DNA of 49,213 nt from an uncultured Lentisphaerota bacterium (GTDB lineage: Bacteria > Verrucomicrobiota > Kiritimatiellia > CAIQIC01): the NCBI GenBank assembly GCA_903889245.1, contig CAISWQ010000047.1:115546-164758 (forward strand). The letters run 5' to 3'. This document shows positions 31,762-47,333 of this stretch, piece by piece. Position numbers and translations under genes: made by a program. The notes under the pieces were generated by a model that was not told where the DNA came from, did not search any database, and was given only the letters and a program-made list of their open reading frames with translations. Every line of letters begins with the position of its first letter. The stretch's first letter is position 1.

Positions 31762-32128
31762 CCAGCGGCGGGCGTTCGGCTTCACCGGCGAACCGCCGGC
31801 GGGCGGCTGGACCGAGGAGCACGTCCGCGAAGCCCTGCGCTGGGTCGTCGATCCGGATCTCCAGATCAACATCGTGGACCTCGGGTTGATCTATGGTGTC
31901 GAGGTCGGCGTTGGCTGCGTGAAGGTGCTGATGACGCTGACCTCACCGGGCTGTCCCTATGGGGACCTGCTGATTTCCAACGCGCGCGACATGGTGAAGC
32001 TGCTGCGCGGCGTGAAGACCGTGGAGGTCGAGCTGGTCTGGGAGCCGGCCTGGAACCCGATGATGATGGACGAGGATCTGCGGATCGAACTGGGTTTTGA
32101 TGTGACGGCAAAAGGAACGACAACATGA
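31730..32128 (+). CDS. sufT: SufT-type MIP18/DUF59 Fe-S assembly protein
   Basis: 132 residues. The DUF59 core is clear: DPDLQINIVDLGLIYGVEV (about 41-59), LMTLTSPGCPYGDLL with the conserved Cys75, and VEVELVWEPAWNPMMMDEDLRIELG. Members of this family help mature Fe-S proteins and are often found in SUF operons. It overlaps the Rrf2 gene by 32 bp and sufC by 4 bp (ATGA), indicating tight translational coupling. Confidence 0.85.
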   Translation: MDAAKPEPDADQRRAFGFTGEPPAGGWTEEHVREALRWVVDPDLQINIVDLGLIYGVEVGVGCVKVLMTLTSPGCPYGDLLISNARDMVKLLRGVKTVEVELVWEPAWNPMMMDEDLRIELGFDVTAKGTTT

Positions 32129-32892
32129 GCGGCGAAGTGGAATTTGAACTGCGCGACCTGCGCGTGCGGAACGGCGCGAAGGACATCCTCAAGGGCGTGG
32201 ATCTGGTCCTGCGGCGCGGCGAGACGCACGCGCTGATGGGGCCGAACGGCTCCGGCAAGAGCACGCTCGCGAACGTCATCATGGGCCATCCCGACTACGC
32301 CGTCACTGGCGGCGACCTGCTGTTCCGCAGCCAGAGCCTGCTCGGCCTCGCGCCGGAAGAGCGCGCGAAGCGCGGCGTCTTCCTCGCGTTCCAATATCCC
32401 GTGGCGGTACCCGGCGTCAGCGTCGCGCGCTTCCTCAAGGCGGCGGTCGAGGCCGTGCGCGGCAAGACCACCGGCGCCGGCAGCTTCCTCAAGGGCGTCC
32501 GCGAGCAGATGAAATCTTTGGAGATGAGCGAGGCTTTTCTCGACCGCGGCTTGAACGATGGCTTTTCCGGCGGCGAAAAAAAGCGGTTGGAAATTCTGCA
32601 GATGCTGCTGCTCAAGCCCGCGCTCGGCGTACTCGACGAGACCGATTCCGGCCTCGACATCGATGCGCTCCGGATTGTCGCGGAGGGCGTCAACCGCCTG
32701 CGCGGCCCGGACCTGACGCTGCTGGTGATCACGCACTACGAGCGGCTGCTCACCTTGATCAAGCCCGACCATCTCCACGTGCTGATGGAGGGCCGCATCG
32801 TGTTCTCCGGCGGCCCGGAGGCGGTGAAGAATCTCGAACAGCACGGCTACGACTGGATTCGCGGGCAGGTCGGCGCGGAGGCGGTCGCGTGA
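32125..32892 (+). CDS. sufC: Fe-S cluster assembly ATPase SufC
   Basis: ABC-type ATPase of the SufBCD scaffold. 255 residues: Walker [10 protein letters not shown] (39-47), Q-loop [11 protein letters not shown], signature [13 protein letters not shown] near 148, Walker [16 protein letters not shown], and THYERLL. SufC-specific features include FQYP and the DETDSGLD box. The stop overlaps the sufB GTG start by 4 bp. Confidence 0.96.
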
Positions 32893-34322
32893 GCGGAGCG
32901 CTCCAGACCGATAGCAAGCTGGTGCAGGACTACCGCTACGGCTTCGTCACCGACATTGCCGAGGATGCGGTGCCCAAGGGCCTGAACGAGGACATCGTCC
33001 GTCTGATCAGCGCCAAGAAGGGCGAGCCGGCCTGGATGACCGAGTGGCGGCTCAAGGCGTTCCGCCACTGGCAGACGCTCAAGGAGCCGCACTGGGCGCG
33101 CGCCGAGTATCCGCCGATTGATTACCAGGACATCCGCTACTACAGCGCCCCGCGCCAGAGCGCGAAACCGGGCGAGGTGGATCCCGAACTGGCGAAGACC
33201 TTCGAGAAGCTCGGCGTGCCGCTGCACGAGCGCGGCGCGCTCGCCGGCATCGCCGTGGACGCGGTCTTCGACAGCGTCTCCGTGGCCACCACACAGTGCG
33301 AGCGGCTCAAGAAGCTCGGCATCATCTTCTGCTCGATGTCGGAGGCGCTCCGCGAGCACGGCGACCTGGTGCGCCGGTATCTCGGCAGCGTCGTGCCGCC
33401 GACCGACAACTTCTATGCCGCGCTGAACTCCGCGGTCTTCACCGATGGTTCGTTCTGTTTCATCCCGCGCGGCGTGCGCTGCCCGGTCGAGCTTTCGACC
33501 TACTTCCGCATCAACGCCATCCGCACCGGCCAGTTCGAGCGGACGCTGATCGTCGCCGAGCCGGAGAGCTACGTCTCCTACATCGAAGGCTGCACCGCGC
33601 CGGCGCGCGACGAAAACCAACTCCACGCCGCCATTGTCGAGCTCGTCGCGCTCGATGGCGCGCAGATCAAATATTCCACAGTGCAGAACTGGTTCGCAGG
33701 CGACGCGGGAGGAAAAGGCGGCATCTATAACTTCGTCACCAAGCGCGGCCACTGCCGCGGCGCGCGGTCGCACATCTCGTGGACGCAGGTCGAGGTCGGC
33801 GCGGCCATCACGTGGAAATATCCGAGCGTGATTTTGGAAGGCGCGGATTCGGTCGGCGAATTCTATTCGGTCGCCTTCACGAACAACAAGATGCAGGCCG
33901 ATACCGGCACGAAGATGATTCACCTCGGGCCGCGCACGCGCAGCACGATCGTCTCGAAGGGCATCTCCGGCGGGCAGTCGGCGAACACCTACCGCGGGCT
34001 GGTCAAGGTTCTGCCGCAGGCCGCCGGCGCGCGCAACCACACCTGCTGCGACTCGATGCTGCTCGGGCCGCATTGCAGCGCGAATACGTTCCCGGTGATC
34101 GAGTCGCGCAACGCGACGGCGGTCACCGAGCACGAGGCCACCACCTCGCGCATCAGCGAGGAGCAGCTTTTCTATCTGCGCAGCCGCGGGCTCGACGAGG
34201 AGACCGCGACGGCGCTGATCGTCCACGGCTTCTGCAAGGAAGTGCTCAAGGAACTGCCGCTGGAGTTCGCCGTCGAGGCGGTGAAGCTGCTGGAACTCAA
34301 ACTCGAACATAGCGTGGGCTGA
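32889..34322 (+). CDS. sufB: Fe-S cluster assembly scaffold SufB
   Basis: 477 residues, GTG start (32889) in a GTGA overlap with sufC. Family blocks: [153 protein letters not shown] and [11 protein letters not shown]. Full length with no internal insertion. It forms the scaffold with SufC and SufD. Confidence 0.97.
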
Positions 34323-34324
34323 TC

Positions 34325-35677
34325 ATGCAAACGTTGGAACAGACAGGCTTTGAGCTGGCGACTTTCGACGACGCCGCGCTCGCGCGGCTCGGCGCGGAGC
34401 CGCACCGCGCCGCGGCGTTCGAGCTGTTCAACGCGCTGCCGGCGCCGGGCGCGCGCGACGAGGAATGGCGGCACTCGCCGGCGAAGCTCTTCCCCCTGGG
34501 CGGACTGCAGCCCGCCGTACCGCAGCGTGCCAACCCTATGCTGCCGGAGGCGGAGTGGCAGGATGAATTCGACGCGGTCGTGGAAGTGGGCGATGGAACC
34601 TTCAGCATCCTGAACCGGTCCGGCGCGCTCGACGTCTATCCGCTCGCGGAGGCGCTGGCGCGCCTGCCCGTGAGCAAGCCGCAGCACCGTCGCAAATTCG
34701 CGGCGCTGGGCCAGGCGTTCTGGAACGCCGGCTTCTTCGTGCGCGCCAGCACCGGCGCGCCAACGCGCCTGCTGGTGAACTGGCGGTTTTCCGCGAGCGG
34801 CCAGTTGCAAATTCCGCGGCTGGTCGTCGCCGTCGAACCCGGTGCCCGCCTGACGCTGGTGGAACGTTTCCAAACCTTGGAAACCGGCAGGGGCGATTTT
34901 TCCAAGCCTTGGAAAAACGGCCACGACGGAGTGTGGCCCTCCACGAAGAATGACGTTGCGACTGGAGGGACGCGCTTCGTCGCGTCCGCTCCCAAGCTGG
35001 CGGTGATCGGCGCGCACGAATTCCACGTGGGCGCCGGCGCCACGCTGGAGCGCGTCGCGCTGCACGAATGGAACAGGGCCACGCTTTGCATCGCCGAGGA
35101 TGCAGTGCAGGTGGCCGGGCGCGGCCGCGCCGACTGGGTGACGGCGGTGCTCGGCGGGCGCGCGGTCAAGCTGACCGCAGGCTGCGATGTGGCCGGCGCG
35201 CGCGCCGAGGCGCATTTGAGCGGCCTCTATTTTGCCGATGGCGCGCAACACGTGGACCAGCGCACCATCCAGCGGCATTCCTCGCCGGACACGACCAGCC
35301 ATCTGCTGTATAAGGGGGCCGTGCGCGATCAAAGTCATACGATCTATCAGGGCCTGATCCAGGCGGCGCGCGGCGCGGTCCGCGTGGATGCCTTTCAGAT
35401 GAACCGCAACCTCGTGCTGACCGAGGGCGCGCGCGCCGACTCGCTGCCGGGGCTGGAGATCGATGCCGATGACCTCAAGTGCAGCCACGGCTCGGCCACC
35501 GGCAGCCTCGATCCGGAACAGCTTTTTTACCTGCGCGCCCGCGGCGTGCCGGAAGCCGAGGCGCGGCGGCTGCTCGTGGACGCCTTCTTCGAGGAAGTGA
35601 GCGCCAAGGCCTCGCCCGCGTGCGTGCAGGAGCATCTGCGCGCGGCAGTGGCGCGGAAGATGGAGGCGGCGTCATGA
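34325..35677 (+). CDS. sufD: Fe-S cluster assembly protein SufD with repeat insertion
   Basis: 450 residues, two bases after sufB. The C-terminal half shows the SufB/D beta-helix signatures: GAGATLERVALHEWN, CDVAGARAEAHLSGLYFADGAQHVDQRTIQRHSSPDTTSHLLYKGAVRD, VDAFQMNRNLVL, LEIDADDLKCSHGSATGSLDPEQLFYLRARGVPEAEAR. The N-terminal half is divergent, as usual. Residues about 181-221 (RFQTLETG...SKPWKNGHDG...) do not resemble SufD and are wholly encoded by two dyad repeats plus a second bipartite repeat, a composite in-frame insertion of about 120 bp located before the beta-helix strands. Overlaps sufS by ATGA. Confidence 0.9.
   Translation: MQTLEQTGFELATFDDAALARLGAEPHRAAAFELFNALPAPGARDEEWRHSPAKLFPLGGLQPAVPQRANPMLPEAEWQDEFDAVVEVGDGTFSILNRSGALDVYPLAEALARLPVSKPQHRRKFAALGQAFWNAGFFVRASTGAPTRLLVNWRFSASGQLQIPRLVVAVEPGARLTLVERFQTLETGRGDFSKPWKNGHDGVWPSTKNDVATGGTRFVASAPKLAVIGAHEFHVGAGATLERVALHEWNRATLCIAEDAVQVAGRGRADWVTAVLGGRAVKLTAGCDVAGARAEAHLSGLYFADGAQHVDQRTIQRHSSPDTTSHLLYKGAVRDQSHTIYQGLIQAARGAVRVDAFQMNRNLVLTEGARADSLPGLEIDADDLKCSHGSATGSLDPEQLFYLRARGVPEAEARRLLVDAFFEEVSAKASPACVQEHLRAAVARKMEAAS
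34867..34916. repeat. Two dyad units inside sufD
   Basis: TTTCCAA-ACC-TTGGAAA (34867-34883) and TTTTCCAA-GCC-TTGGAAAA (34898-34916), centres 32 bp apart, both perfect palindromes, in frame within the gene. They are followed within 5 bp by the bipartite element at 34921. Confidence 0.93.
34921..34987. repeat. Bipartite hairpin element inside sufD
   Basis: Left part 34921-34942 (CCACGACGGAGTGTGG then CCCTCC), 21-bp centre, right part 34964-34987 (GGAGGG then ACGCGCTTCGTCGCGT, CC). Both parts, in the same order, match the reverse complement of the intergenic element at 47268-47333 with one mismatch each. The frame remains open across the whole element. Confidence 0.88.
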
Positions 35678-36903
35678 GTTTTGAGCCCCTCAAGCTGCGC
35701 GCCGACTTTCCTGCGCTGGGCCGCGTCTTCGACGACGGCCGGCGGCTGGTCTATCTCGACAACGCGGCGACCACGCAGAAGCCGCGCGACGTGCTCAAGG
35801 CGACGCGCCGCTACTACGAGGAGAGCGCCGGCAACGTCCACCGCGCCGTCCACCGGCTCGCGGCGGAGGCGACCGGCCTCTATGAGGAGGCACGGCAGAA
35901 GATCGCCGCCTTCATCGGCGCGCCGTCGCCAAAGCAAATCGTGTTCACGCACGGCGCAACGGAAGGCATCAACCTCGTTGCCCACGGCTGGGCGCGGAAA
36001 TTTCTGAACGCCGGCGATGAACTGCTCGTCACCGAGATGGAGCACCACAGCAACCTGATCCCGTGGCAGCAGGCCGCGCGCGCAAAGGGCGCCACGCTGC
36101 GGCTCGTCCCGGTGCTGGCGGATGGCACGCTGGACCGCGAGGCGTTCCGCCGCCTGCTGACGCCGCGCGTCAAGCTGCTCGCCGTGACGCACGCCTCGAA
36201 CGTGCTCGGCACGATCAATCCCATCGCGGAGCTGATCCGCGAGGCGCACGCCGCCGGCGCGCGCGTGCTGGTGGATGGCGCGCAGAGCGTGCCGCATCTG
36301 CCGCTCAACGTGGCGGCGCTCGACGCCGACTTCCTGGTTTTCTCCGGCCACAAAATGCTCGGCCCGACCGGCATCGGTGTCCTCTATGCCAAGCCGGAGC
36401 TGCTCGACGCGATGGACCCGCTGCTGACCGGCGGCGAGATGATCAGCCGCGTCTGGGACGACCACGCGACGTGGGCCGAGCCGCCGCAGAAATTCGAGGC
36501 CGGCACACCGCATATCGCCGGCGCCATCGGGCTGGGGGCGGCGGTGGACTATCTCGCGAAGCTCGGCCACGACGCGCTGCGGCAGCACGAGCTGGCGCTG
36601 ACCGCCTACGCGCTGGAAAAACTCGGCGCGGTGCCGGACCTGAAGATTTTCGGCCGCGCGCCGGAGCGGCTCGGCGTCGTCTCGTTCGCGCTCGAGGGCG
36701 TGCATCCGCACGACGTCGCGCAGTTCCTCGACCGCGATGGCCTTGCGATCCGCGCGGGCCATATGTGCGCGCAACCGCTGCTGCGCCGGCTCGGCGTGCC
36801 GGCGGTCAGCCGCGCGAGCTTCTACCTCTATAACGACCGCGACGACGTGGACCGCCTGGCCGCGGCGCTGCTCGCCGTCAGGAAATTCTTCCATGCAACT
36901 TGA
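35674..36903 (+). CDS. sufS: Cysteine desulfurase SufS
   Basis: PLP enzyme that removes sulfur from cysteine for cluster assembly. 409 residues from MSFEPLKLRADFPALGR. Motifs: YLDNAATTQKP, GNVHRAVHRLA, FTHGATEGINLVAHGW, EMEHHSNLIPW, VDGAQSVPHLP, FSGHKMLGPTGIGVLY with PLP Lys227, and catalytic Cys365 in RAGHMCAQPLL. This is a group II (SufS/CsdB) enzyme, consistent with a SufU partner downstream. Start overlaps the sufD stop (ATGA) and its end overlaps sufU by 11 bp. PLP would come from the pdxB/pdxH pathway. Confidence 0.96.
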   Translation: MSFEPLKLRADFPALGRVFDDGRRLVYLDNAATTQKPRDVLKATRRYYEESAGNVHRAVHRLAAEATGLYEEARQKIAAFIGAPSPKQIVFTHGATEGINLVAHGWARKFLNAGDELLVTEMEHHSNLIPWQQAARAKGATLRLVPVLADGTLDREAFRRLLTPRVKLLAVTHASNVLGTINPIAELIREAHAAGARVLVDGAQSVPHLPLNVAALDADFLVFSGHKMLGPTGIGVLYAKPELLDAMDPLLTGGEMISRVWDDHATWAEPPQKFEAGTPHIAGAIGLGAAVDYLAKLGHDALRQHELALTAYALEKLGAVPDLKIFGRAPERLGVVSFALEGVHPHDVAQFLDRDGLAIRAGHMCAQPLLRRLGVPAVSRASFYLYNDRDDVDRLAAALLAVRKFFHAT

Positions 36904-37321
36904 CGACCTCTATCAGGAAGTGATCCTCGACCATTACCGCCATCCGCGCTGCAGTGGCGAGCTGGCGGAGGGCGAGGCGCTGGTGGACGAGGAGAATCCG
37001 CTCTGCGGCGACCACCTCAAGCTGGCGGCGCACATCGCCGGTGACAAACTGACCGGCGTGAAGATCCAGTGCCAGGGCTGCGCGATCTGCACGGCCTCGG
37101 CCTCGATGATGGCGGAAGCCGTCAACGACCTGCCGCTGGCCGACATCCGCAAAAAATCCGCCGCGTTCCTCGCGGTGCTGCGCGGCGAGCGCGCCGCGAG
37201 CGAGGAGGAGCTCGGCGACCTCGTGGCACTGCGCGGCGTCGCCGAGTTCCCGCTGCGGGTGAAGTGCGCCACGATGCCGTGGCACGCGCTTGAAGCCGCG
37301 CTCAAGCGCCTCACTCCGTAA
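36893..37321 (+). CDS. sufU: SufU sulfur-relay protein
   Basis: 142 residues. The zinc/sulfur acceptor ligands of SufU are all in place with family spacing: Cys38 and Asp40 in NPLCGD, Cys63 in GCAICTASASMMAEAV, and Cys125 in RVKCATMPWHAL. It accepts persulfide sulfur from SufS and passes it to SufBCD. An insert between Cys63 and Cys125 is of normal SufU length, which separates it from IscU. It is the last gene of the operon and is followed 2 bp after the stop by dyad repeats. Confidence 0.94.
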   Translation: MQLDDLYQEVILDHYRHPRCSGELAEGEALVDEENPLCGDHLKLAAHIAGDKLTGVKIQCQGCAICTASASMMAEAVNDLPLADIRKKSAAFLAVLRGERAASEEELGDLVALRGVAEFPLRVKCATMPWHALEAALKRLTP

Positions 37322-37323
37322 AC

Positions 37324-37371
37324 TTTCCAAGCCTTGGAAAATTCGCGCGGCTTTTTTCCAAGGCCTGGAAA
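37324..37371. repeat. Two dyad units after the SUF operon
   Basis: TTTCCAA-GCC-TTGGAAAA (37324-37341) and TTTCCAA-GGC-CTGGAAA (37355-37371), centres 31 bp apart, filling the 59-bp gap between convergent sufU and the oxidoreductase gene. Confidence 0.92.
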
Positions 37372-47267: not shown

Positions 47268-47333
47268 GGACGCGACGGAGCGCGTCCCTCCACACACAGG
47301 TAAAAAACTGGAGGGCCACGCTCCGTCGTGGCC
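47268..47333. repeat. Bipartite hairpin element, intergenic copy
   Basis: Left hairpin GGACGCG-ACGGAG-CGCGTC then CCTCC (47268-47291), 18-bp centre, right hairpin GGAGG-GCCACG-CTCCGT-CGTGGC (47310-47333). Inverted relative to the copy inside sufD (34921-34987). Confidence 0.88.

Follow-up and report, generated by a model that had tools for sequence, protein, structure and literature searches.

The window analysed here, a stretch of 49,213 nucleotides from the draft genome (5.26 Mb in 125 contigs, 96.6% complete) of a freshwater Lentisphaerae bacterium, contains a complete suf operon on the forward strand with the gene order sufC-sufB-sufD-sufS-sufU. It encodes the ABC ATPase SufC (32125–32892, PF00005), SufB (32889–34322, PF01458 and PF19295), SufD (34325–35677), the cysteine desulfurase SufS (35674–36903, PF00266) and the SufU/NifU_N scaffold (36893–37321, PF01592). 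SufD is a SUFBD_core protein of 450 aa (Pfam PF01458, E = 7.9e-66) with an assumed essential role in the host organism, and its gene carries two insertions. The KCSHG motif of SufD is kept among relatives, and the best match to a solved structure is E. coli SufD. An AlphaFold model made from an input of four sequences had a mean pLDDT of 41, with the insert at low confidence, and a PDB fold search with this pLDDT-41 model returned no match.

The upstream insertion is a pair of 17-bp dyads, TTTCCAA-ACC-TTGGAAA (34867–34883) and TTTCCAA-GCC-TTGGAAA (34899–34915), the second starting 32 bp after the first. The other insertion begins 3 bp past dyad 2 and consists of two facing hairpins of the repetitive extragenic palindrome (REP) type, occupying 34919–34987. 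Its left unit (type Y, reverse strand, 34919–34942) has the CTCC/GGAG head toward the linker and one mismatch to the commonest copy, whereas the right unit (type Z, forward strand, 34964–34987) has the variant loop CTTCGT; the 21-nt linker between them (34943–34963, ACGAAGAATGACGTTGCGACT) is not common to other dimers. The preliminary description had reported such a bipartite element here with a length of 67 bp; the element is indeed present, and it measures 69 bp. As was also claimed there, its hairpins match the reverse complement of an intergenic element at 47268–47333 with one mismatch each, where shuffled sequences would lead one to expect no match at all. This reference dimer of 66 bp comprises a type Z unit on the reverse strand (47268–47291), a linker of 18 nt and a type Y unit on the forward strand (47310–47333). 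The order of the parts and the CCCTCC/GGAGGG borders are common to both copies, while the linkers (21 vs. 18 nt) are unrelated. The same intergenic region also holds two GTAGCGGCGGGCTATGCCCGCCG palindromes (47145 and 47471) of a GTAG-headed REP-like family.

Comparison with close relatives, including three genomes of the host's genus (G001, G002 and G003; the host genome is G000), gave a nested series of sufD genes with no insert, with dyads only, and with dyads plus the REP dimer. In the SufD alignment, G001 and the more distant proteins have a short stretch without an insert between LVER and VIGAHEF, and G002 and G003 have 12 additional residues made by the dyad pair, without a REP dimer. 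In the host SufD, another 23 residues are present, corresponding exactly to the 69-bp hairpin pair. The total is thus 35 aa (12 from the dyads and 23 from the dimer) rather than the roughly 40 residues first proposed, and the gain without stop codons was correctly described. The alignment shows two growth steps, the dyads coming first (G000, G002 and G003) and the REP dimer second (G000 only). Since the net gain matches the span from hairpin to hairpin, a target duplication is unnecessary; the flanks have diverged, so the exact insertion joint is unreadable base by base.

The similarity reaches far past the two copies from which the element was first recognized. The REP unit of 24 bp has 98 matches with up to two mismatches on either strand of the 5.26-Mb genome, and it belongs to a family found class-wide, an exact copy of the unit being present in 57 of 146 class genomes. 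The family signature is T-GGAG-GGNNNNG-CTCCGT-CNNNNCC-G, with the T preceding the head in 88% and the G following the tail in 97% of the cases and with a near-fixed loop CTCCGT. The matches form about 74 loci, 51 with single units and 23 with several, the latter nearly all head-to-head; the linkers are mostly 11–32 nt long and unrelated to one another. According to a home-made gene finder, applied to a 1.08-Mb sample chosen around REP matches (about 86% coding), 58 of the 74 loci are clearly intergenic, 10 lie at contig ends and 6 in or at a gene. For the class-wide search, the head and loop were fixed and the four variable stem pairs were left free, and covariation was tested at these: 95.1% were paired, with a score of 0.595 against 0.139 for shuffled stems (0 of 500) and at most 0.128 for slid ones. 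Overall, this is a short, dispersed and mainly extragenic palindrome with a pairing-conserved stem, arranged in opposed pairs with variable linkers. Judged by layout, copy number and location, the sufD element is therefore a REP dimer (BIME), which the preliminary description had not identified. The family falls outside both named superfamilies. Its head is GGAG and not GTAG or GTRG (the two preceding bases are GT in about 44%), and its stem base is GG/CC, as opposed to the A/T first stem pairs and the CGTC, TGTC or CCTC head of the CGTC superfamily (PMC3733652). The GGAG head is complementary to CTCC in the loop, and guide pairing between them is possible.

The genome-wide search, with coding status judged in the 1.08-Mb sample, found the element to be mostly intergenic, with sufD and at least three further genes, detected by reading each REP inside predicted genes, carrying it in frame. 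In a topoisomerase IV A-like protein, a REP dimer lies in the variable N-terminal linker in a different reading frame; this region is unalignable, and hence a net gain is not demonstrated there. An HZS_alpha-like protein contains a single REP unit which is missing in G002 and G003. In an FAD oxidoreductase (L086, 8410–8470), a REP dimer coincides in part with the predicted signal peptide, whose end it possibly supplies. Direct reading of the consensus of either REP unit revealed no stop codon in any frame, so that insertions of suitable length survive. In L113 (9700–9850), a palindrome GGCGGGGTTTCCAACCCCGC adjoins an in-frame REP. The pattern GCGGGGTT-N-AACCCCGC was matched 26 times in the 1.08-Mb sample, both strands counted.

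The TTTCCAANNNTTGGAAA dyads form a separate family, with 546 in the same sample (about 0.5 per kb) and 24 in the window between 946 and 48740, and they were found in 9 of 39 genera sampled. Of 313 close neighbours, 291 are spaced at 31 or 32 bp. Most dyad arrays (195 of 245) lie outside genes, at a median distance of 32 bp from gene 3′ ends as opposed to 72 bp from gene starts. A dyad pair directly past sufU (37324–37371) has no counterpart at this position in G001, G002 or G003, and dyads thus seem to have been gained recently. Complementary centres in paired dyads were considered and rejected (77 observed against 69.9 expected). A general fixation of the dyads at the DNA level received mixed support, as other orthologous positions lack them or have changed versions. 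A tentative and rather doubtful reading treats the arrays as an undescribed system of chromosomal sites in its own right, in which the 31/32-bp spacing keeps neighbouring palindromes about three helical turns from each other. Such sites might be read by a DNA-binding protein terminating or phasing transcription or organizing the nucleoid, and might be kept as DNA sites even within sufD, the REP dimer then being a second element that landed beside one of them.

One question is whether the dyads and the REP dimer entered sufD together as one composite mobile element. They are only 3 bp apart, and a gene in L113 likewise holds both families; there, however, they are about 600 bp from each other, and of about 74 REP loci, the sufD dimer alone has a dyad within 25 bp. 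Moreover, G002 and G003 have the dyads at the same site and no dimer, and joint insertion could be rescued only by a precise loss of the dimer alone in both, which makes it very unlikely. The dyads standing alone in these relatives and the rarity of REP loci near dyads bear out the earlier claim that two unrelated repeat families adjoin within this gene. Even less credible is an assembly or binning artefact in which a repeat-driven misjoin placed the element in sufD: the assembly is a draft of 125 contigs and the element is repetitive, but the REP units are just 24 bp long and the linker is unique, the frame and the sufD sequence run on normally on either side, and the insert length is exactly divisible by three.

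The gain of 35 residues could also be taken as junk tolerated by a decaying pseudogene. This has hardly any probability, as no stop codon or frameshift was found in sufD, the KCSHG region is conserved and the operon is intact. A search for a second sufD across the genome, which the preliminary description had named as evidence against its reading, found none, the sole other match being the adjacent SufB paralogue. Purifying selection is strong on either side of the inserts, the dN/dS values between the host and G002 being 0.194/0.722 before and 0.085/0.552 after the insert; sufD looks like a functional gene with a tolerated insertion. It is more conceivable, yet still improbable, that the insert persists because it has a function, either as an exposed SufD loop or as a hairpin in the suf mRNA tuning sufD-sufS-sufU expression. 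A role at the RNA level is suspected for REPs located close to gene ends (PMC3733652), and the 69 nt of the sufD dimer fold better than shuffled sequence does (z = −2.4, as DNA), as does the intergenic dimer (z = −5.5); every REP dimer folds, however, and folding is thus no sign of use in sufD. Similarly, the arms of the sufD dyads appear identical in the host and G002 despite a widely different spacer, but in another gene the arms differ among congeners, and the dyad-derived stretch of SufD diverges fast (dN 0.44, dS 0.23, at few sites). The REP dimer is, furthermore, present in the sufD of one species only, being known from one draft genome.

We therefore strongly favour the explanation that a GGAG-headed REP dimer was inserted in frame, 3 bp past an older TTTCCAANNNTTGGAAA dyad pair, into a part of the SufD core that tolerates it. 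The insert is most likely near-neutral passenger DNA rather than an adaptive peptide. In mechanistic terms, the dimer would move as folded single-stranded DNA, with the head and loop recognized, at roughly even chances, by a trans-acting enzyme of the TnpA-REP (RAYT) type. It would have been retained because 69 is a multiple of three, the sequence is stop-free and the protein stretch is tolerant.

The host genome has two RAYT genes, each flanked by different, non-GGAG REPs. The one at L047 (1153–1893) lies between GTAG-GCCRCGTGA-CC-TCACGYGGC units as in a typical REPtron, and the other (L046, 1327–2001) is flanked by GGAACGCGACC REPs, inverted GGTGGAACGCGACCTCCGGGCGCG units with a GTGG head. 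A search with PF01797 and NF047646 in the host genome and relatives found no RAYT flanked by a GGAG REP. At the RAYT loci checked in relatives, the GGAG unit did not closely flank any, and two RAYTs of G007 are roughly 0.4–1.3 kb from REP clusters without being flanked by them. The arrangement of a RAYT-mobilized REPtron, a transposase between inverted copies of the same REP, was thus not found for the GGAG family in this 96.6%-complete genome or at the relatives' loci checked, and RAYT mobilization in trans stays inferential. Tested TnpA-REP enzymes recognize the REP head and loop (PMC8266576), and the conserved head and loop of the GGAG family fit what these enzymes read. CGTC REPs have also been reported without a dedicated transposase (PMC3733652).

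Intragenic in-frame REPs, single or dimeric, have already been described, with many in O. terrae and Rickettsia (PMC3733652). Like the GGAG units, the GTAG/CGTC REPs (Di Nocera et al., 2013, PMC3733652) are palindromes (20–40 bp) with an unpaired tetranucleotide and many head-to-head dimers, mostly intergenic and in some cases in frame, adding 20–30 residues; the in-frame cases include the Verrucomicrobium O. terrae and DNA-metabolism genes. In comparison, the present family differs in its GGAG head, near-fixed CTCCGT loop, Lentisphaerae host and adjoining unrelated dyad family. It shares a head plus hairpin, with conserved head and loop and a variable stem, with the RAYT/TnpA-REP REPtrons (Nunvar, 2010, PMC2817692; PMC8266576), whose described heads are GT(A/G)G and which contain a flanked RAYT such as was not found here for the GGAG REPs. 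The E. coli BIMEs likewise join REP units of different types in inverted orientation through short linkers, but their heads are GTAG, their stems bulged (PMC8266576) and their location usually extragenic. The Rickettsia RPEs, compared by published head and stem features only, are palindromic repeats in frame in many protein genes, and in-frame insertion absent from orthologues was found here for sufD and the HZS_alpha-like gene. Two of these elements, RPE-4 and RPE-6, count among the CGTC REPs (PMC3733652) and a third, RPE-1, has a greater length, whereas the copies described here are mostly intergenic.

In-frame intragenic REPs are thus known but uncommon, and sufD offers a clear stepwise example; new here are the GGAG head, the Lentisphaerae phylum and the stepwise record. 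A literature search for the REP and dyad sequences found no paper with either, and the case also draws attention to the large dyad family. With the clear head-loop signature of the GGAG family and no transposase found for it, the question of what mobilizes RAYT-less REPs becomes directly testable. With this finding, intragenic REPs are now known from the Lentisphaerae, here with a new head, and a single conserved gene records in two steps how unrelated repeat families have added new stretches to a protein.
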